IMG/VR virus record: IMGVR_UViG_3300037961_002014
Span: 1 to 22,858 of that record
Direction: 5' to 3' (one strand)
DNA from: a virus
DNA length: 22,858 bases
The number at the start of each line of letters is the position of its first letter. Position 1 is the first letter of the stretch. The position numbers and the translations under genes were made by a program. Below, piece by piece: positions 698-22,329 of the stretch. The notes beneath the pieces are model-generated. The model saw only the letters and a program-made list of their open reading frames with translations, made no database searches and had not been told where the DNA came from.

Positions 698-711
698 TGC
701 ATTTAATTGTG

Positions 712-785
712 TACCCCCGATAGGATTCGAACCTATGACCCACAGCTTAGAAGGCTGTTGCTCTATCCAACTGAGCTACGAGGGC
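712..785 (-). tRNA. tRNA-Arg (anticodon UCU)
   Basis: Read on the minus strand it folds as a full cloverleaf. The acceptor stem pairs GCCCTCG with CGGGGGT, the D arm contains AGCTCAGTTGGATAGAGC, the anticodon stem ACAGC/GCTGT closes loop CTTCTAA (anticodon TCT), and the T arm is ATAGG-TTCGAAT-CCTAT. The discriminator is A and CCA is not encoded (the next bases are CAC). It would read AGA codons, which are visibly frequent in late genes such as the HNH gene. Confidence 0.97.
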
Positions 786-8026: not shown

Positions 8027-8443
8027 GTGGGTAAACGCACGCAGCCATACAGACTTGGATTTCCTGCAAAGTATGTAGACAAATCCCAGGGCAAGTCGGA
8101 TACGAAGAGTACGACTGCCGAGGCTGTGGCTTTGCTGAAAAGAGGGCAGGAGGCGGCTAAGAAAGGAGAGAAACTCCCCGATAGCTATTTCAAAGCGAGG
8201 GTAGCTAAGAAGGGTGCCAAGGTTTCTCGCAAGGCACTAAATGCTTCAGTCAAGAAAACATTGCAGGCCAAGGCCAAGAAGTCTGGCATCTCTTACGGCA
8301 CATTGTCCAAGGTGTACCGCAGAGGTCAAGGCGCTTGGTTGTCAGGAGGTAGCCGCCGGGGTGCTTCTATGGCAGCTTGGGCTATGGGCCGAGTAAATAG
8401 TTATATTAGAGGCTCCAGAAAACACGATACTGATTTACGATGA
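8027..8443 (+). CDS. DUF5824-like small basic phage protein
   Basis: 138 aa, strongly basic. The C-terminal part VYRRGQGAWLSGGSRRGASM, AAWAMGRVNSYIRGSRKHDT matches what I know as DUF5824, a domain of unknown function in phage proteins. The same module is found in the 22123-22329 product (VYRRGLAAYMSSGNRPKVSQ, HAWAMARVKSAF). The first 90 residues are Lys/Ala-rich. GTG at 8027 is the only usable start, since no in-frame ATG occurs until near the C-terminus, and it lies 4 nt behind a TATATTTA box. Its last four bases overlap the next gene (ATGA). It is probably a virion or packaging-linked protein; that is inference. Confidence 0.75.
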   Translation: MGKRTQPYRLGFPAKYVDKSQGKSDTKSTTAEAVALLKRGQEAAKKGEKLPDSYFKARVAKKGAKVSRKALNASVKKTLQAKAKKSGISYGTLSKVYRRGQGAWLSGGSRRGASMAAWAMGRVNSYIRGSRKHDTDLR

Positions 8444-10151: not shown

Positions 10152-10364
10152 ATGAAGTACGGCAAAAAGATGAAGCAGGGGGGGAATGTGAAAAGCGGAA
10201 ACTTTTCTGTTCTCAACAAGACCAAGTCTATCGATCCTCCTAAGGGCTTCCACTGGATGGAGGAGGGAGGCAGGTACTACCTGATGGAGGGCGACTATGC
10301 CCCGCACCCAGGCGCTGTAGCTAAGGCCAAGTTCAAGATGGCCGATCACCCTAAGAAAAAATAA
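10152..10364 (+). CDS. Small basic phage protein, paralogue of the 21663 gene
   Basis: 70 aa. The last 45 residues (SIDPPKGFHWMEEGGRYYLM, EGDYAPHPGAVAKAKFKMAD, HPKKK) differ from those of the 21663-21857 product at only 3 positions (E/K, A/V, A/K), while synonymous changes are many at DNA level. The N-terminus MKYGKKMKQGG differs from the paralogue. Aromatic and Pro-rich, basic end; probably a small structured domain with a disordered Lys tail. The family is not one I can name. Its 3' end overlaps the leftward winged-helix gene by 14 nt. Confidence 0.8.
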   Translation: MKYGKKMKQGGNVKSGNFSVLNKTKSIDPPKGFHWMEEGGRYYLMEGDYAPHPGAVAKAKFKMADHPKKK

Positions 10365-11972: not shown

Positions 11973-12209
11973 GTGGCCAACATCATTAGAAAGATCGTCG
12001 TGGGGCCAAACCCTAAAGACGCTATGGCATACTTCATTGGTATGCGTGCGGGTGATTCACGAATCAGTATGATCGTAGAGGACGAGAGGTCTATGTACAA
12101 ATACAACGTGCGTAGATACGAGGTGTATGTAGAGGATGAGGATTCAACCATGCTTTGGAAGACGATCGAGAATCAGCCCGTCCTGATAGAATACGATTGC
12201 AAATTTTAA
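11973..12209 (+). CDS. Hypothetical small phage protein
   Basis: 78 aa with GTG start (VANIIRKIVVGPNPKDAMAY), chosen because it follows the previous stop by 5 nt and no other in-frame start precedes the conserved-looking core. It ends with beta strands (YNVRRYEVYVEDEDSTMLWK). Family not recognised. Confidence 0.65.
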   Translation: MANIIRKIVVGPNPKDAMAYFIGMRAGDSRISMIVEDERSMYKYNVRRYEVYVEDEDSTMLWKTIENQPVLIEYDCKF

Positions 12210-12213
12210 TTTT

Positions 12214-12819
12214 ATGAAAGCCCTACATCACTTCATTGTAAGAGTTCCCAAACGATTTGAAGACACCATCGAGGTCGGTGGTCAGGAGTTGTATCTAGAC
12301 ACCAAGTGGAACGAGTTTGAAAACAGGATTGCTTACGGAGAAATCGTCTCTGTGCCTTTGAGGTACCACGGCGACGCCAAGAAGGGAGACACTTTGATCT
12401 TCCACCATCATGTCACAACAAACAGTGCTCTGAAAATCTCAGACGATCTAGGTGACGATTTGTACATGTGCATGTACAACGAGGAACATGGTCAGCTCAG
12501 CCAAGCCATTGCATACCGAAGCAAGGATACAGAGGATCTTCACATGCTTGCTGACTGGCTTTTTGTCTTGCCTGTAGACCAGACTAAAGAAGAGGAAAAG
12601 ACTGAGGCAGGGGTCATTATCCCCGACCTCAATCCTGAGGTCAGAGATATCGCTGAGGTGTATACGCCACACCCAGAGCTGGAGGAGCAAGATGTAAATC
12701 CTGGTGACATTGTAGGATTTGAAAAGAGTGCTGACTACAAGATTAAGTTAGACAATGACGACATTGTCTATCGCATGCGTGTACAAGACATCAGCTATGT
12801 CGAAGTTCACGACGATTGA
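12214..12819 (+). CDS. Two-domain GroES-like (Cpn10) co-chaperonin
   Basis: 201 aa. The second half, residues about 115-199, reads as Cpn10: LFVLPVDQTKEEEKTEAGVIIPD with the mobile-loop-like GVII, then DIAEVY, VNPGDIVGF and YKIKLDNDDIVYRM, aligning with GroES GGIVLP, GEVVAVG, VGDKVLF and EEYLVLR. The first half looks like a divergent copy: FIVRVPKRFEDTIEVGGQEL, YGEIVSVP, KKGDTLIFHHHV. This tandem arrangement recalls chloroplast Cpn20, whereas bacterial GroES has one domain of about 97 aa. The protein would cap host GroEL and help fold phage proteins such as the capsid, like T4 gp31. It lies just before the packaging genes. The second-domain call is fairly strong, the first weaker. Confidence 0.75.
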   Translation: MKALHHFIVRVPKRFEDTIEVGGQELYLDTKWNEFENRIAYGEIVSVPLRYHGDAKKGDTLIFHHHVTTNSALKISDDLGDDLYMCMYNEEHGQLSQAIAYRSKDTEDLHMLADWLFVLPVDQTKEEEKTEAGVIIPDLNPEVRDIAEVYTPHPELEEQDVNPGDIVGFEKSADYKIKLDNDDIVYRMRVQDISYVEVHDD

Positions 12820-13081
12820 GGCTGCCAAGCGATTGATGAAGTCTATGGAAACGGCAATCAATAATATGATTGATGAAATCAAAAAGCCCGTGGACCCAGA
12901 CATCAATGGTAGCGCAAGGAAGGCTGAGCTGCAAGCGATCAAGCAGACAGCCACGGACTGCAAAGAGCTTCTGGTAGAGCGCCAGCGGCTTGAACAAATG
13001 ATCAAAGACCTTACGAACAATGGAGCGATCGCAGAAGACAAAGACTACTCAGGAGGTTTCGCTGAGAGATACTCAAAGTGA
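12797..13081 (+). CDS. Helical protein next to packaging genes (possible small terminase)
   Basis: 94 aa from ATG at 12797 (MSKFTTIEAAKRLMKSMETA), overlapping the co-chaperonin gene by 23 nt. All helical with a coiled-coil pattern (ATDCKELLVERQRLEQMIKD). No HTH is visible. Position upstream of the HNH and large terminase genes is where a small terminase or packaging accessory is often found, but sequence alone does not show that. An upstream frame start at 12755 is rejected because it would overlap more. Confidence 0.6.
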   Translation: MSKFTTIEAAKRLMKSMETAINNMIDEIKKPVDPDINGSARKAELQAIKQTATDCKELLVERQRLEQMIKDLTNNGAIAEDKDYSGGFAERYSK

Positions 13082-13163
13082 TTGGAAAGAGATTGTATGG
13101 GAAAGAAATAAAGTAGAGCACAAGTTTTGGGAGGAGTCTTGGAATAAGAAGTCAGGGGACTGA
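13020..13163 (+). CDS. Very small Trp/Lys-rich protein
   Basis: 47 aa, MERSQKTKTTQEVSLRDTQS followed by a Trp-rich helix (DWKEIVWERNKVEHKFWEES). It lies in a different frame from the preceding gene, overlapping its 3' end by 62 nt, and its TGA shares a base with the HNH ATG (TGATG). The junction and the consistent Trp/Glu/Lys helix support it; the length makes it uncertain. Confidence 0.45.
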   Translation: MERSQKTKTTQEVSLRDTQSDWKEIVWERNKVEHKFWEESWNKKSGD

Positions 13164-13525
13164 TGCCTTTCAAGGATCCCGAAAAAAGAAAACAATATCA
13201 AAGAGAATATCATAGAAGGTACTATCAAGACCATAGTACCAAGTACAAGGAGAAGGCTAAGAAGTGGAACAAGTCACAAAGGAGATGGGCAAGAGATTAC
13301 GTGCAGAGGGTCAAGAGGATGAACAAGTGCATCGATTGTGGTCAATCCAATCCACTGGTACTTGAGTTTGATCATGTAAAAGAGAAGTCATACAACATCT
13401 CCGATATGGTGAATGGCTCGTACTCCATCGCTTCGATCAAAGAAGAGATAAGAAAATGTGAGATACGGTGTGCTAACTGTCACAGGATCAAGACAATAGA
13501 AAGAAGAAACAATTCAATAAAATGA
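13163..13525 (+). CDS. HNH endonuclease
   Basis: 120 aa. The first 50 residues are basic and aromatic. The HNH fold is marked by zinc-type pairs C56-x2-C59 and C103-x2-C106, with D70-H71 in LEFDHV as the catalytic start and H107 just after the second pair (CANCHRIKT). Such small HNH enzymes next to terminases take part in DNA packaging in HK97-like phages or act as homing nucleases. Here the location one short gene upstream of TerL favours a packaging role, as inference. It is joined by TGATG to the gene before and by ATGA to the gene after. Confidence 0.9.
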   Translation: MPFKDPEKRKQYQREYHRRYYQDHSTKYKEKAKKWNKSQRRWARDYVQRVKRMNKCIDCGQSNPLVLEFDHVKEKSYNISDMVNGSYSIASIKEEIRKCEIRCANCHRIKTIERRNNSIK

Positions 13526-13650
13526 AAAAGCTGCCTGTCAAAGTAGAAAAGAAACGCATTCGCAGAAAGGGCGTGCATTCTAAGAACAACCACTCTAAGA
13601 ACAAGAAGTCCAAAAACTACGTGAAGGCTTATGCTGGTCAGGGTAGATAA
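13522..13650 (+). CDS. Very small basic protein upstream of terminase
   Basis: 42 aa, MKKLPVKVEKKRIRRKGVHS followed by KNNHSKNKKSKNYVKAYAGQ and GR. Over half of the residues are Lys, Arg, His or Asn. The ATG overlaps the HNH stop (ATGA) and the end overlaps the TerL start by 20 nt. The SKNNHSKNKKSKNY stretch looks conserved in form, like short proteins found before terminase genes in related phages, from memory only. It may bind DNA. Confidence 0.6.
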   Translation: MKKLPVKVEKKRIRRKGVHSKNNHSKNKKSKNYVKAYAGQGR

Positions 13651-15769
13651 GTATGATGAGCAGGCTGTCAGCATTTGTCCCAACGGCACGCAGGGTGAGA
13701 TTGTTGAACTCGGTGGGTTGGTCATTGTACTTCCCGCTGTCCCGCCCCCAGAGGAAGTTGAAGGACATGACCGTCCAAACGACATGCAGTTGTGGGAGAG
13801 GCGGGCTATGCCAGAGGAGCTGTCTAGGATTCGTTCTATGGATGAGTGGGGGGAGATGCCAAGGGAGTTCAGAGAAAAGTTTCGTCCGTATATCGAAGAG
13901 GAGTTTCGCCGTAGGCGTGAGGGCTTTTGGTTTTTCAACGATGGCGTCCCTACATATATTACGGGTCGGCACTACATGATGTTGCAATGGACGAAGATGG
14001 ACATAGGCTATCCTTCGTACCTTTCTTTCCAACGTGAAATCTTTCTCCACATGGCTGCGTGCGAAGCGGACCCACGCTGCATGGGTCAGCTCTACACTAA
14101 GTGTCGCCGTTCTGGATACACTAATATCTGCTCTTCAGTCTTGGTCGATGAGGCTACGCAGATTAAGGATAAGCTTCTCGGCATCCAGTCGAAAACAGGT
14201 AAAGACGCCCAAGAAAACATCTTCATGAAAAAGGTGGTGCAGATGTTCCGGCACTACCCTTTCTTTTTCAAGCCCATCCAAGACGGAACGACCAACCCTC
14301 GTGTAGAGCTGGCCTTCCGTGAGCCATCGAAGAGGATCACCAAAAACAACAAGACGGCCTTCAAGGGTGATGCGTTGAACACGGTCATCAACTGGAAGAA
14401 CACCACGAACAACGCTTACGATGGTGAGAAGCTGCACATCTTGTATCTGGACGAGGCAGGCAAGTGGGAGAAGCCCACAGACATCAGGGAGGCGTGGCGT
14501 ATCCAGAGGACGTGTTTGATTGTAGGTAGAAAAATCATTGGGACCGCCCTGGTCGGTTCGACCGTCAACCCCTTGGACAAGGGCGGCAAGCAATACAAAA
14601 AGCTGTGGGAAGACAGTGACCCTCAAGCCCGCAACGCCAACGGAAGGACGGTGAGTGGATTGTACCGCATCTTTGTGCCTGCCGACGAAGCTCTAGAAGG
14701 TTTTTTTGACAAGCACGGCAACGCTGTCAAAGACGATCCAGCCACAGCAGTTGACGGACTGGATGGTGAGCCCATTGCTTTTGGTTCCAGGACGTTTTTG
14801 AAAAACGAAAGGTCGGCTATGAAGTCTGATACGAGAGAGCTCAATGAGTTCATCAGGCAGTTCCCATTTTCTCCTGAGGAGGCTTTCCGTGACTCCATCG
14901 AAGGCAGCCTCTTCGACATCTCAAAGATCTACGACCAGATAGAGCACAATGACATGCTGTATCCCAACCCTATCGTGGAGGGTAATTTTGTCTGGAAAGA
15001 CGGCAGGCGTGATACAGAGGTTGTGTTTCGCCCGACTAAAAATGGAAGATGGAGGGTGGCGTGGATGCCTCCTTCGGGCATGAGAAACAAGAGGGAGGAG
15101 TACCGGGGTAAGATGATAGCCCCACACAGCTCTCTAGGCTGTGGGGGCGTAGACAGCTACGACCTCGATGCCACTGTCGATGGTAGGGGGTCTAAGGGTG
15201 CCTGCCACCTGTACAATAAGTTCAGCATGCAGCACCCTTCGAACATCTTTGTTGCTGAATATATCAGCAGGCCACCAATGGCCAAGATCTTCTACGAGGA
15301 TATTTTGATGGCTTCGTTTTTCTATGGCTACCCGCTGTTGATTGAGAACAACAAGTATGGGATCGTGAGGTATTTTGAGGAACGTGGGTATGACGGCTAT
15401 GTGCTGGATAGGCCCGATCACCTGAAGTCTACGTCGAGCTCGGTGAACGTCAAGACAAAGGGGATTCCGTCTAACTCTCAAGACGTGTTGCAGGCTCACG
15501 CCCAAGCCATCGAAGATTACATCCATCAGCATGTGGGATATAATGAGGAGGGCGATATGGGGAAGATGTACTTCAATAGGACGCTTGAAGATTGGATACA
15601 GTTTAAGATTACCAATCGAACCAAGTACGACTTGTCAATCAGTTCAGGTCTTGCTTTGCTTGCAGCTCAAAAAGAAAAGCCCAAAGCAAAGAGGGCAGAC
15701 TTTAGTGAAAAAAAATTCTTCCGTAGATACAAGTACAACGCTGGCGGACCCTCTACCCTTCGCAAGTGA
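13631..15769 (+). CDS. terL: Terminase large subunit (packaging ATPase/nuclease)
   Basis: 712 aa, longer than many TerL. ATPase motifs: KCRRSGYT (157-164), a deviant Walker A of the lambda gpA type (compare KSARVGYS) rather than the usual GxxGKT, and Walker B LHILYLDEAGKWE with D274-E275; GSTVNP near 309 fits the coupling motif. Nuclease motifs: GVDSYDLDATVD with D508 and D511, LIENN with E572, and a later Asp in KYDLSIS. It uses ATP to translocate DNA into the prohead and cuts concatemers. It is preceded by the HNH and small basic genes and followed by the portal gene. Confidence 0.93.
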   Translation: MLVRVDKYDEQAVSICPNGTQGEIVELGGLVIVLPAVPPPEEVEGHDRPNDMQLWERRAMPEELSRIRSMDEWGEMPREFREKFRPYIEEEFRRRREGFWFFNDGVPTYITGRHYMMLQWTKMDIGYPSYLSFQREIFLHMAACEADPRCMGQLYTKCRRSGYTNICSSVLVDEATQIKDKLLGIQSKTGKDAQENIFMKKVVQMFRHYPFFFKPIQDGTTNPRVELAFREPSKRITKNNKTAFKGDALNTVINWKNTTNNAYDGEKLHILYLDEAGKWEKPTDIREAWRIQRTCLIVGRKIIGTALVGSTVNPLDKGGKQYKKLWEDSDPQARNANGRTVSGLYRIFVPADEALEGFFDKHGNAVKDDPATAVDGLDGEPIAFGSRTFLKNERSAMKSDTRELNEFIRQFPFSPEEAFRDSIEGSLFDISKIYDQIEHNDMLYPNPIVEGNFVWKDGRRDTEVVFRPTKNGRWRVAWMPPSGMRNKREEYRGKMIAPHSSLGCGGVDSYDLDATVDGRGSKGACHLYNKFSMQHPSNIFVAEYISRPPMAKIFYEDILMASFFYGYPLLIENNKYGIVRYFEERGYDGYVLDRPDHLKSTSSSVNVKTKGIPSNSQDVLQAHAQAIEDYIHQHVGYNEEGDMGKMYFNRTLEDWIQFKITNRTKYDLSISSGLALLAAQKEKPKAKRADFSEKKFFRRYKYNAGGPSTLRK

Positions 15770-15806: not shown

Positions 15807-18260
15807 ATGAACTATAGCGACAACAAAGGCGTATACGGCAACTTCCCCGATCCATTTGCGGAGCCAAAAGTCAAGGAAAGTAAGTCGTATGGGCAAGCCT
15901 TTGCAAACGCTATCATGGGGCAGTGGGGTACCTACCAGGATTCGTCATCGCTTTTGAACAGACGTTTCTACGAGTTTGAAAAGAATCGGGACTACGCCAA
16001 CGGTACACAGGACACCTCTATTTACAAGCAGATCCTCAACAGCCTCGACCCCAACAATGGTGATGGCACACTGTTGAATATCGATTGGTCACCCGTCCCT
16101 ATCATCCCCAAGTTCGTCAAGGTCGTCGTCAACAGGATTCTTTCTCGCAAGCCGTATCCCTCTGTAGAGGCCATCGACCCTGTATCTCGTCAGGAGAAGG
16201 AGACCAAGAGGCAGGAGATCGAAATCACGATTGAAAACAAGCAAGCGTTTCAAGAGGCGAGGGCTTTGGGTCTAAACACCAAGATCGATCCAGACACAGT
16301 CCCGGATACGACTGAGGAGGCTGAAATCTTTTTGGATCAGAACATCAAGACCAACGCCGAGATCGCTGCGCAGATGGCCACGTCATTGACGCTGGATTGG
16401 AACAGCTTCGACCAAAACACATACCGCCGATGTGTGCAGGATCTGGTAGAGGTGGGTATGGGTGTTACCAAAAGAAAGAACGACCCGAACTACGGCATCA
16501 CGACGGAGTACGTCGATCCTGCTATGTTCTTGCACAGCTACACCGAAGACCCCCACATGAATGATATCGTGTATGCGGGCCACATCAAGCGCATGTCGAT
16601 CATGGACTTGAAGCGCATGGCGGGTGATGAGTTTACAGAAAAGGAATACGAGGAGTTGGCCAGGAAGGTCATGCACAAGAGCTACAACGACAAGGGCAAG
16701 TTCATGACGGGTGGTGGCTACGACCGTGCAGGTCGCAAGCAGACCTATGGCTATGACGATTACTTGATTGAGGTCTTGGACTTTGAGTTCAAGAGCGTCG
16801 ATACCGTGTACTATGAAAGCAAGGAGTCACGCTTCGGCAATGTCGGATTCTACTACAAGGGCATGGCTTTCAAGCCTGTCTCCGAATCGGTGTACGACCG
16901 CAAGCCATACAAGATGGATGTGGAGACCCTGTATGGAGGTTGTTACATCATTGACAGCAAAAAGATTTTCAACTACGGACGGATGAAGAACATTCCCAAG
17001 AATGTTCACGACATCTCCCGTGCCGAGCTTTCGTACAGTATCGCCTGCACAAACATCCGCCGCATGATTCCGAAATCATTGGTGGGTGGCATCACGGGCT
17101 TTGCCGATCAGTTGCAGCTTACGCACTGCAAGATCCAGCAGGCTGTGGCCAAGGCCAAGCCTGACGGATTGATCATCGACATCGAAGGACTGGAGAATGT
17201 GCAGCTTGGCCGTGGTGGTGACTTGAGCCCTCTGGAGTTGCAAGACATCTACGAGCAGACGGGTATCATGTACTACCGTTCGAAGAATCCTGAGGGCGGC
17301 TTCCAGAACCCACCGATCCGATCTATCGAAAACCAGATCAGAAACATCAATTCGTTCATCACGCTGTACAATCATTACCTGAGAATGATTCGTGATGCCA
17401 CGGGTGTCAATGAGGTGATGGATGCATCGACCCCCAAGGGCGATGCTTTGGTAGGTGTTCAGCAACAAGCTTTGGCTGCGGGCAACAACGCTTTGTACGA
17501 CATCACGAATGCGTCGCTTGTATTGTACAGACGTGTTTGTCAGGATATTGTCAGGTGCTTGCAGATCATCCCAGAGAAGTCTGTCTTGTACCGCACCTAC
17601 GAAAAGGCTATTGGCAAGTACAACATGGAGGTGTTGAGTTCATTCAAGGACTTGCCCATGTATAACTTTGGTATCCAGGTCATCAAGTCTATGTCTGACG
17701 AGGATCGCATCTTCCTGGAGCAAAACATCCAATCGTCTTTGGCTCAGAAAGAAATCGACTTGGAGGACGCTATGGCCGTGAGGCAGCTCAAGGACATCGA
17801 CCAAGCGGAGAGGCTGTTGGTGGTGCGCCGCAAGAGACGTATTGCTCAGCAGCAGCAGCTTGCTCAGCAGAACATGCAAGCTCAGGCTCAAGCTAACGCC
17901 CAAGCTTCGCAGGCCGCTTCACAAGCGAAGATGCAGGAGATGCAGATGGAGGCTCAAATCGATGCGCAGAAGATGCAGCTCAAGGCTCAGGTCGATGTGC
18001 AGGTGGCGGCGGCGATGCACCAGATGAGGAAAGAGATTGAGCAGATCAAAGCCCAAGCTGTCCTCGGCGCCCGTGCCAGCGATCAGGAGTTTAGAGAAAA
18101 GATTGAGACCATGAAGGAGTCGGGCAAAGACGAAAGGATTGCACGTCAGGCCGCTGAGCAGTCCAAGCTTATCTCTCAAAGAAAAGGTGAGATCCCTCGC
18201 TTACCAGAAGTCCAAGAAAAGGACGAGGGCTTGGAGAAATTTTTAGAAGACCTGATTTGA
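15807..18260 (+). CDS. Portal protein
   Basis: 817 aa, directly downstream of terL and on the same strand, as is usual. The N-terminal region, residues about 30-120, includes an aromatic, Asn/Asp-rich opening (RRFYEFEKNRDYANGTQDTS) and WSPVPIIPKFVKVVVNRILS, typical of portal wings. The centre is mixed alpha/beta. The C-terminal 130 residues are Gln/Ala-rich (QQQLAQQNMQAQAQANAQAS), then charged helix, as expected of a barrel or coiled coil. Length fits P22-like portals better than the ~450-aa HK97 type. It forms the dodecameric ring through which DNA is packaged. The function is strong; the subfamily is uncertain. Confidence 0.88.
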   Translation: MNYSDNKGVYGNFPDPFAEPKVKESKSYGQAFANAIMGQWGTYQDSSSLLNRRFYEFEKNRDYANGTQDTSIYKQILNSLDPNNGDGTLLNIDWSPVPIIPKFVKVVVNRILSRKPYPSVEAIDPVSRQEKETKRQEIEITIENKQAFQEARALGLNTKIDPDTVPDTTEEAEIFLDQNIKTNAEIAAQMATSLTLDWNSFDQNTYRRCVQDLVEVGMGVTKRKNDPNYGITTEYVDPAMFLHSYTEDPHMNDIVYAGHIKRMSIMDLKRMAGDEFTEKEYEELARKVMHKSYNDKGKFMTGGGYDRAGRKQTYGYDDYLIEVLDFEFKSVDTVYYESKESRFGNVGFYYKGMAFKPVSESVYDRKPYKMDVETLYGGCYIIDSKKIFNYGRMKNIPKNVHDISRAELSYSIACTNIRRMIPKSLVGGITGFADQLQLTHCKIQQAVAKAKPDGLIIDIEGLENVQLGRGGDLSPLELQDIYEQTGIMYYRSKNPEGGFQNPPIRSIENQIRNINSFITLYNHYLRMIRDATGVNEVMDASTPKGDALVGVQQQALAAGNNALYDITNASLVLYRRVCQDIVRCLQIIPEKSVLYRTYEKAIGKYNMEVLSSFKDLPMYNFGIQVIKSMSDEDRIFLEQNIQSSLAQKEIDLEDAMAVRQLKDIDQAERLLVVRRKRRIAQQQQLAQQNMQAQAQANAQASQAASQAKMQEMQMEAQIDAQKMQLKAQVDVQVAAAMHQMRKEIEQIKAQAVLGARASDQEFREKIETMKESGKDERIARQAAEQSKLISQRKGEIPRLPEVQEKDEGLEKFLEDLI

Positions 18261-21357: not shown

Positions 21358-21663
21358 GTGAGCAAAGAGGGTATGAGAAACAGGATCAAGCGCATGCTGA
21401 AAAAGCATGGGCTAGCTGGTGTCAACAAGCCAAAACGTACACCTAGCCATCCCAAAAAGTCACACATCGTTCTCGCTAAAGAAGGAGACAGGGTAAAGCT
21501 TATCCGCTACGGCCAACAAGGTGCCAAGACAGCAGGAAAGCCTAAGAAGGGGGAGAGCGATCGCATGAAAAAGAAAAGAGCTAGCTTTAAGGCTAGACAC
21601 AGAAAAAACATAGCCAAGGGCAAGATGAGCGCAGCTTTCTGGGCCAATAAAACCAAGTGGTAA
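21358..21663 (+). CDS. Basic phage protein, DUF6321-like
   Basis: 101 aa, very Lys/Arg-rich. HGLAGVNKPKRTPSHPKKSH, VLAKEGDRVKLIRYGQQGAK and SFKARHRKNIAKGKMSAAFW follow what I know as DUF6321, a phage family of unknown function. The start is a GTG 4 nt behind the TATATTTG box; an ATG at codon 6 (21373) is an alternative that would give a 15-nt leader. It probably binds DNA or belongs to the virion. It shares the stop/start base with the next gene (TAATG). Confidence 0.75.
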   Translation: MSKEGMRNRIKRMLKKHGLAGVNKPKRTPSHPKKSHIVLAKEGDRVKLIRYGQQGAKTAGKPKKGESDRMKKKRASFKARHRKNIAKGKMSAAFWANKTKW

Positions 21664-21857
21664 TGAAGACCATCAAGGCAAAAAAGGGGGCTAAGTTCTC
21701 CATCACCAACAAGACAATGTCGATAGACCCTCCGAAAGGCTTTCACTGGATGGAAGAGGGTGGCAGGTACTATTTGATGAAAGGCGACTACGTCCCTCAT
21801 CCTGGCGCTGTGAAGAAAGCGAAGTTTAAAATGGCTGACCATCCAAAGAAAAAGTAA
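21663..21857 (+). CDS. Small basic phage protein, paralogue of the 10152 gene
   Basis: 64 aa. The start ATG overlaps the previous stop (TAATG). SIDPPKGFHWMEEGGRYYLM and the rest of the 45-residue C-terminal part differ from the 10152 product at 3 positions. The N-terminus (MKTIKAKKGAKFSITNKTM) is different. It is located 11 kb from its relative but beside other small basic proteins. Confidence 0.85.
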   Translation: MKTIKAKKGAKFSITNKTMSIDPPKGFHWMEEGGRYYLMKGDYVPHPGAVKKAKFKMADHPKKK

Positions 21858-22126
21858 TGGCCAAGTCTCCAGCACAACAAGCCGCTATTGCTATCGCCAT
21901 GAAGAAAGCAGGCAAGAGGCCTAAGTCTGCGAAGAAAGGGATGAAGTTCAACCCTAAATACACTCGTGGCAGTGCTGACGTAGCTAAGAGGAAAAGACTC
22001 ATGCAGCAAATTGCTGACATTTACAAAAAGCATAGAGGCACAAAAGCTAAAAGAAAAAAGAAAGGATTCCCACCTGCCGTTGCAGCTCGATTAAAGAAGC
22101 TTATGGCGCAAAGAGATAAGATATGA
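21857..22126 (+). CDS. Small basic phage protein (SPAQQAAIAIAMKKAGK type)
   Basis: 89 aa. MAKSPAQQAAIAIAMKKAGK is a recurring opening in short proteins of phages, followed by a strongly basic body (GFPPAVAARLKKLMAQRDKI at the end). About one third is Lys/Arg. It overlaps both neighbours (TAATG before, ATGA after), so these genes are coupled. DNA-contacting or virion use is inferred from charge only. Confidence 0.7.
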   Translation: MAKSPAQQAAIAIAMKKAGKRPKSAKKGMKFNPKYTRGSADVAKRKRLMQQIADIYKKHRGTKAKRKKKGFPPAVAARLKKLMAQRDKI

Positions 22127-22329
22127 AAGTGATGAAGAAAGGCGGCATGGCTGGTTTGGATGCTGCACAAAAACAAGTCTATCGCAGAGGCCTTGCTGCT
22201 TATATGAGCTCTGGCAACAGGCCAAAGGTTTCTCAGCACGCATGGGCTATGGCAAGAGTGAAGTCGGCCTTTGGGAAACGAGAAGCAGCAAAGATTAGAG
22301 CGGGGAAAGGGAAGAAGAAGAAAAAATAA
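22123..22329 (+). CDS. Small DUF5824-like basic protein
   Basis: 68 aa. VYRRGLAAYMSSGNRPKVSQ plus HAWAMARVKSAFGKREAAKI matches the C-terminal module of the 8027-8443 protein; the surroundings (MKVMKKGGMAGLDAAQKQ and the terminal KGKKKKK) differ. It is essentially the module with short basic ends. It overlaps the previous gene by ATGA. Function unknown; the repeated use of the module in one genome suggests a shared binding partner. Confidence 0.75.
   Translation: MKVMKKGGMAGLDAAQKQVYRRGLAAYMSSGNRPKVSQHAWAMARVKSAFGKREAAKIRAGKGKKKKK

Follow-up and report, generated by a model that had tools for sequence, protein, structure and literature searches.

Can a phage co-chaperonin be built from two Cpn10 barrels in a single chain, and if so, which machine does it serve? 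The question is raised by a 201-residue protein encoded by a marine phage sequence (the window, that is, the whole stretch of 22,858 nucleotides that we analysed), which a sequence-only reading had described as a phage-encoded tandem of two Cpn10-like halves, the second convincing and the first divergent, likened to chloroplast Cpn20 and proposed to cap host GroEL with a ring of different geometry, which might enlarge the chamber for a substrate such as the capsid protein. The gene is an intact frame with an ATG start (Table 1); read on the opposite strand, the same stretch is interrupted by several stops.

Table 1 Coordinates of the tandem Cpn10-like gene, its domains and motifs, and the surrounding packaging genes in the window.
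Feature	Position	Strand	Evidence or distribution
Small ORF, 78 aa, GTG start	11973..12209	+	homologue in 80/111 loci
Tandem Cpn10-like protein, 201 aa	12214..12819	+	phrog_13932, Pfam Cpn10, AF2 model, profile-profile
First Cpn10-like domain, residues 1-112	12214..12549	+	hhalign to Cpn10; own AF2 model
Hydrophobic triplet L26-Y27-L28, putative first mobile loop	12289..12297	+	conservation
H64-H65-H66, within LIFHHHV	12403..12411	+	conservation
Second Cpn10 domain, residues 113-201	12550..12816	+	Pfam Cpn10; hhalign
G133-V-I-I motif, second mobile loop (EEEKTEAGVIIPD)	12610..12621	+	conservation
94-aa ORF overlapping tandem gene 3' end	12797..13081	+	homologue in 81/111 loci, at least 43% identical
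HNH endonuclease, optional cassette insert	13163..13525	+	phrog_2255 E = 2e-24; 12/111 loci
Terminase large subunit	13631..15769	+	phrog_6681 E = 4e-200
Portal protein	15807..18260	+	phrog_6547 E = 9e-188

The protein belongs to a family that is already known and labelled: PHROG phrog_13932 (200 positions, 'co-chaperonin GroES') covers residues 1-197 at E = 1.4e-35. A single-sequence query of IMG/VR recovered 27 full-length relatives and one profile scan recovered 434, of which the best 80 were retained; further full-length IMG/VR relatives came from the Elemovirus, phi38:1 and phi46:3 branches. By tblastn, 90 public phage records matched, and in 84 of these the match spanned 80% or more of the query. 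The whole-protein family is large and phage-borne, and it is not unique to the window phage. A 'chaperonin cpn10' has been counted among the Pervagoviridae core proteins (PMC8776804), and GroEL and GroES homologues have been noted in Maribacter phage Panino (PMC11590407). No close relative was found in cellular genomes, where the single distant match is a contig (L176) in a Maricaulis MAG that is evidently phage, since it carries the same gene cassette. Weak matches of residues 6-71 to APC/C Cdh1 (E 0.03-0.08), absent from the profile search, were set aside as chance. Other members gave weak Pfam matches to Nmad3, MazE and DUF4261, each present in a minority of members. Among the matches listed, near-DNA similarity bearing on the host was confined to a tRNA and a 115-base patch; a tRNA-Arg gene (anticodon tct; 711-785, minus strand) is 87-91% similar to tRNA-Arg of Proteus and Lysinibacillus phages.

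The second half proved as convincing a Cpn10 as had been claimed, with residues 121-193 matching the Pfam family (PF00166) at E = 2e-6 and 28.1 bits against a cut-off of 21.1. Its hhalign comparison with the Cpn10 profile gave a probability of 98.5 and a score of 81.7, and 38 of the 49 family members matched Cpn10 at E ≤ 0.1.

For the first half, a Pfam scan of the first 110 residues returned neither Cpn10 nor any other family. When a profile of 49 first halves was aligned with a Cpn10 alignment of bacterial and phage GroES, however, hhalign gave a probability of 92.2 and a score of 40.1, collinear over 78 columns that start at residue 1 and take in the loop, the GE-beta2 strand and the GD motif. 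This is far above 60 column-shuffled Cpn10 profiles, which reached scores of at most 16.4 and probabilities of at most 2, and above the reversed Cpn10 control (0.2). The two halves also aligned with each other (probability 66.8, P = 5e-5). The half expected to be Cpn10-like but divergent is therefore both, and a Cpn10 profile match, on which the earlier reading of this half depended, was found. The separate structural comparison was mixed. Modelled alone with AF2 (pLDDT 86.7), the first half had no PDB match below E = 0.88 in Foldseek; the non-significant list is headed by medium-chain dehydrogenases and consists mostly of GroES-like folds, with Mycobacterium tuberculosis Cpn10 at rank 20 (TM 0.48/0.54, probability 0.30). 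The catalytic domain of medium-chain dehydrogenases itself has a GroES-like fold (SCOP).

The full-length AF2 model, built from 49 sequences (pLDDT 85.3, pTM 0.82), matched the double-domain Cpn20 of Chlamydomonas (7ekq_R) over 204 columns at E = 1.3e-4 and TM 0.55/0.56, which upheld the chloroplast analogy, and GroES (8wuw) at E = 1.2e-4; the match to T4 gp31 (1g31, E = 0.12) fell below threshold. In the viral structure library the best matches were full-length relatives, for example the predicted phi18:3 'chaperonin cpn10' (TM 0.71). The strand order of the two halves agrees in the model bar one strand, and the low-confidence stretches include both loops (pLDDT 73-77 and 69-71), as would fit mobile loops, in which flexibility is expected. 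Because the profile-profile and full-length fold matches hold despite the non-significant stand-alone first half, we take the tandem reading to stand, with a first domain that is predicted to be strongly diverged. It is improbable, in our estimate, that the second half alone works as a Cpn10 and that the first is a separate beta-domain, extremely diverged or unrelated, such as a substrate-recruiting or oligomerising module. The lack of a Pfam match, the non-significant stand-alone fold search, and an HHH motif and extra segment that GroES lacks would all suit such a module, but the collinear 92% profile match over the loop, GE-beta2 and GD motifs, the concordant strands, the full-length match to tandem Cpn20 and the GroES-like folds that dominate even the non-significant list argue for two related domains.

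We next consider the parts by which a Cpn10 would engage a chaperonin, comparing 40 sequences of the window clade with nine distant members. Positions 26, 27 and 28 of the putative first loop are hydrophobic in all 40 window-clade sequences and in 9/9, 8/9 and 9/9 distant ones, respectively, and the LYL resembles the loop of the single GroES of Elemovirus (SSGLYLGD). In the second loop, G133 is invariant and positions 134-135 are I or V throughout the window clade (40/40), and the window sequence EEEKTEAGVIIPD is very close to loops of bacterial GroES, for example EEEKTAGGIIIPD. The Elemovirus relatives have this second loop deleted, which leaves 16-17 residues where the other distant branches have 26-27. 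Because the loop borders are not equivalent, a general comparison of loop lengths with GroES was dropped, and the analysis used the roof segment and the loss of the loop inside the family. The segment that forms the GroES roof spans 14-17 residues in both halves (median 16-17) against 24 in bacterial GroES. Single-domain phage GroES proteins are roofless as well (15-18 residues), so roof shortening is not a consequence of the tandem form. T4 gp31 also has no roof loops, and their absence opens its dome (PMC6318259); with gp31 and the single-domain phage proteins both roofless, a missing roof does not exclude a co-chaperonin. The family's most conserved block lies elsewhere, in the first-domain stretch LIFHHHV (0.55 bit, the lowest entropy of any 10-residue segment), where H65 and H66 are present in 40/40 and H64 in 39/40 window-clade members, and HHN in 8/9 distant ones.

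The gene also keeps constant company. A terminase lies downstream of it in all 111 loci and a portal gene in 100, the other 11 loci ending too early. The 78-aa frame, whose homologues mostly start with ATG, stops 4 bases upstream of the tandem gene, and its profile aligns with that of the frame in the same place in Panino, phi38:1 and an elemo phage at hhalign probabilities of 98.4%, 95.5% and 92.8%, respectively. It had no match in Pfam or PHROG and possibly encodes a partner protein. The terminases of the phi38:1, elemo and Panino phages are only 34-47% identical to that of the window; because the gene order is the same despite this distance, the cassette of small ORF, tandem Cpn10, terminase and portal is, as judged from sequence, older than the split of these phages. 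The 78-aa protein is kept directly upstream even where terminase identity is only about 35-40%. The 94-aa frame encodes a charged, probably helical protein, for which no Pfam or PHROG family rose above its cut-off. Between it and the terminase sits the HNH endonuclease, which is probably a mobile insert. Two pairs of plus-strand genes flank the packaging region: a duplication of small basic proteins at 10152-10364 and 21657-21857, about 11 kb apart, which are 84% identical over 57 aa and share ...KGFHWMEEGGRYYLM...KMADHPKKK, and proteins at 8027-8443 and 22123-22329 that both match Pfam DUF5824.

Chaperonin genes of other kinds occur in part of the family. Phage GroEL was found in 10 of 30 records, from Elemovirus, phi38:1 and Panino, some being repeat entries for a single phage, and the same phages carry a separate single-domain GroES; no phage GroEL was found in 16 window-clade records, which may be incomplete. 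That some members encode GroEL indicates that chaperonin supply matters to this phage group. The phi38:1 GroEL has been detected in infection proteomics (PMC13288928). Besides the tandem gene, these Elemovirus, phi38:1 and Panino phages have a divergent GroEL that adjoins or lies close to the single-domain GroES, at L031:5035-6848 (minus strand) and in records G017-G022 and G024. A Maricaulis MAG (G028, contigs L178-L184) holds eleven Cpn10-like genes on small contigs, many in frames of 85-160 aa, with a GroEL adjoining one of them (L178); the contigs are probably of phage origin, binned together, and carry several kinds of phage co-chaperonin.

We lean towards a phage co-chaperonin with two Cpn10 barrels per chain that acts on GroEL for late proteins. 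The chain, which profiles and models predict to comprise two Cpn10 beta-barrels, would be co-expressed with the terminase and portal genes, as the gene order suggests, and motif conservation points to the hydrophobic triplet of each barrel's mobile loop as the part that would bind the GroEL apical domains. As in plastid Cpn20, a few chains may together close a GroEL ring of seven-fold symmetry, either with six or eight domains set against seven sites or with single-domain GroES mixed in; having no roofs, the barrels would give an open dome like that of T4 gp31. Late virion or packaging proteins would be the likely clients. In the window clade the partner would be host GroEL, and Elemovirus, phi38:1 and Panino would have their own GroEL as well. 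Support for the earlier proposal that the protein caps host GroEL is indirect: the second loop is like that of bacterial GroES, and almost all members have a hydrophobic triplet in the first loop. A different closure, in which seven chains would form a fourteen-domain, two-tier lid with one ring of barrels on GroEL and the second stacked above it to give a taller chamber, strikes us as highly improbable; only the first domain keeps its loop in Elemovirus, as if one domain faced GroEL, and the shortened roofs would leave the dome open, but the window clade keeps both loops, which argues for side-by-side use as in Cpn20.

Several observations count against the co-chaperonin reading. Elemovirus has lost the second loop yet keeps the tandem gene beside a full phage GroEL/GroES pair; the first domain alone finds no significant fold match in the PDB; conservation peaks at LIFHHHV and not at the second loop, which GroES function alone does not explain; and conservation is weaker in the tandem protein than in those encoded around it, at about 50% against 74% for the terminase in many of the same loci. 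With its second loop lost and a GroEL/GroES pair of its own present, the Elemovirus protein may do something else. Since the tandem gene is kept beside a phage's own GroEL and GroES, and given the Elemovirus loop loss, a specialised role is favoured, at least where the phage supplies GroEL and a single GroES itself.

Alternatively, the Cpn10 fold may have been put to new use in a factor dedicated to packaging or head assembly, which may aid assembly of the terminase or portal or cap another ring and would have ceased to act on GroEL; we rate this as possible but doubtful. It would account for the constant location directly ahead of terminase and portal, alongside a conserved small ORF, in every lineage examined, for retention of the gene in phages already equipped with GroEL and single GroES, for the lost second loop of Elemovirus and for the conserved HHH/HHN patch. 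There is also a precedent: a ClpP complex (7ekq) contains Cpn20, Cpn11 and Cpn23, which shows that machines of another kind can be capped by Cpn10 rings. It fits poorly with a bacterial-GroES-like GVII/GII loop motif in 40/40 window-clade members and with a first-loop triplet that is hydrophobic even in distant members, and Pfam and PHROG scans gave the tandem protein no homology to packaging proteins. Only tentatively, and as an unlikely case, do we raise a broader proposal, that a double-barrel Cpn10 bearing a conserved His patch serves an ancient packaging cassette as its dedicated assembly factor, separate from the general-purpose phage GroEL/GroES pair and working either through a new two-barrel GroEL geometry or independently of GroEL. 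That the gene always lies beside terminase and portal makes one ask which virion protein would require a folding lid of its own.

Compared with known systems, the window protein is closest in kind to the full-length phrog_13932 members of named isolates, namely the Cellulophaga phages phi38:1, phi46:3 and Calle, the Flavobacterium elemo phages and Maribacter phage Panino, to which it is 21-24% identical. In these isolates the tandem gene likewise precedes terminase and portal. Elemovirus members differ in having no second loop, which the window protein has, and several of the named phages carry a phage GroEL, a gene found in none of the 16 window-clade records. The literature searched contained no account of the two-domain architecture in phages, which is weak evidence, as most subscription journals lay outside that search. 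Bacterial GroES resembles the second domain, which passes the Cpn10 family cut-off and keeps the loop motif, but it is one domain with a roof, whereas the phage protein has two roofless domains, the first of them below Pfam detection. T4 gp31, which capsid protein folding requires and which experiment has shown to act on gp23, is a single domain, whereas the window protein has two. Its likeness lies in being a phage co-chaperonin without roof loops (PMC6318259).

Plastid Cpn20 likewise joins two Cpn10 domains head to tail in a chain of about 200 aa, and both domains have a mobile loop. Its double structure has been stated to be specific to plant-lineage eukaryotes, and it keeps roofs in both domains (PMC3542282), whereas both phage roofs are short; the phage gene has no evident transit peptide and a phage genome context, whereas Cpn20 belongs to a plastid gene lineage. 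No specific sequence kinship between the two was found, and by analogy the phage protein would work like Cpn20 without being a member of that family. Despite the mismatch, Cpn20 functions together with chaperonins of seven-fold symmetry, and in Escherichia coli it can substitute for GroES (PMC5780408; PMC3542282), so the tandem architecture is compatible with co-chaperonin function. In plastids, the match between an even number of domains and a chaperonin of seven-fold symmetry has long been a puzzle (PMC5780408), and the phage family offers a second natural case in which to study it, widespread in phages and, as far as tested, separately evolved.
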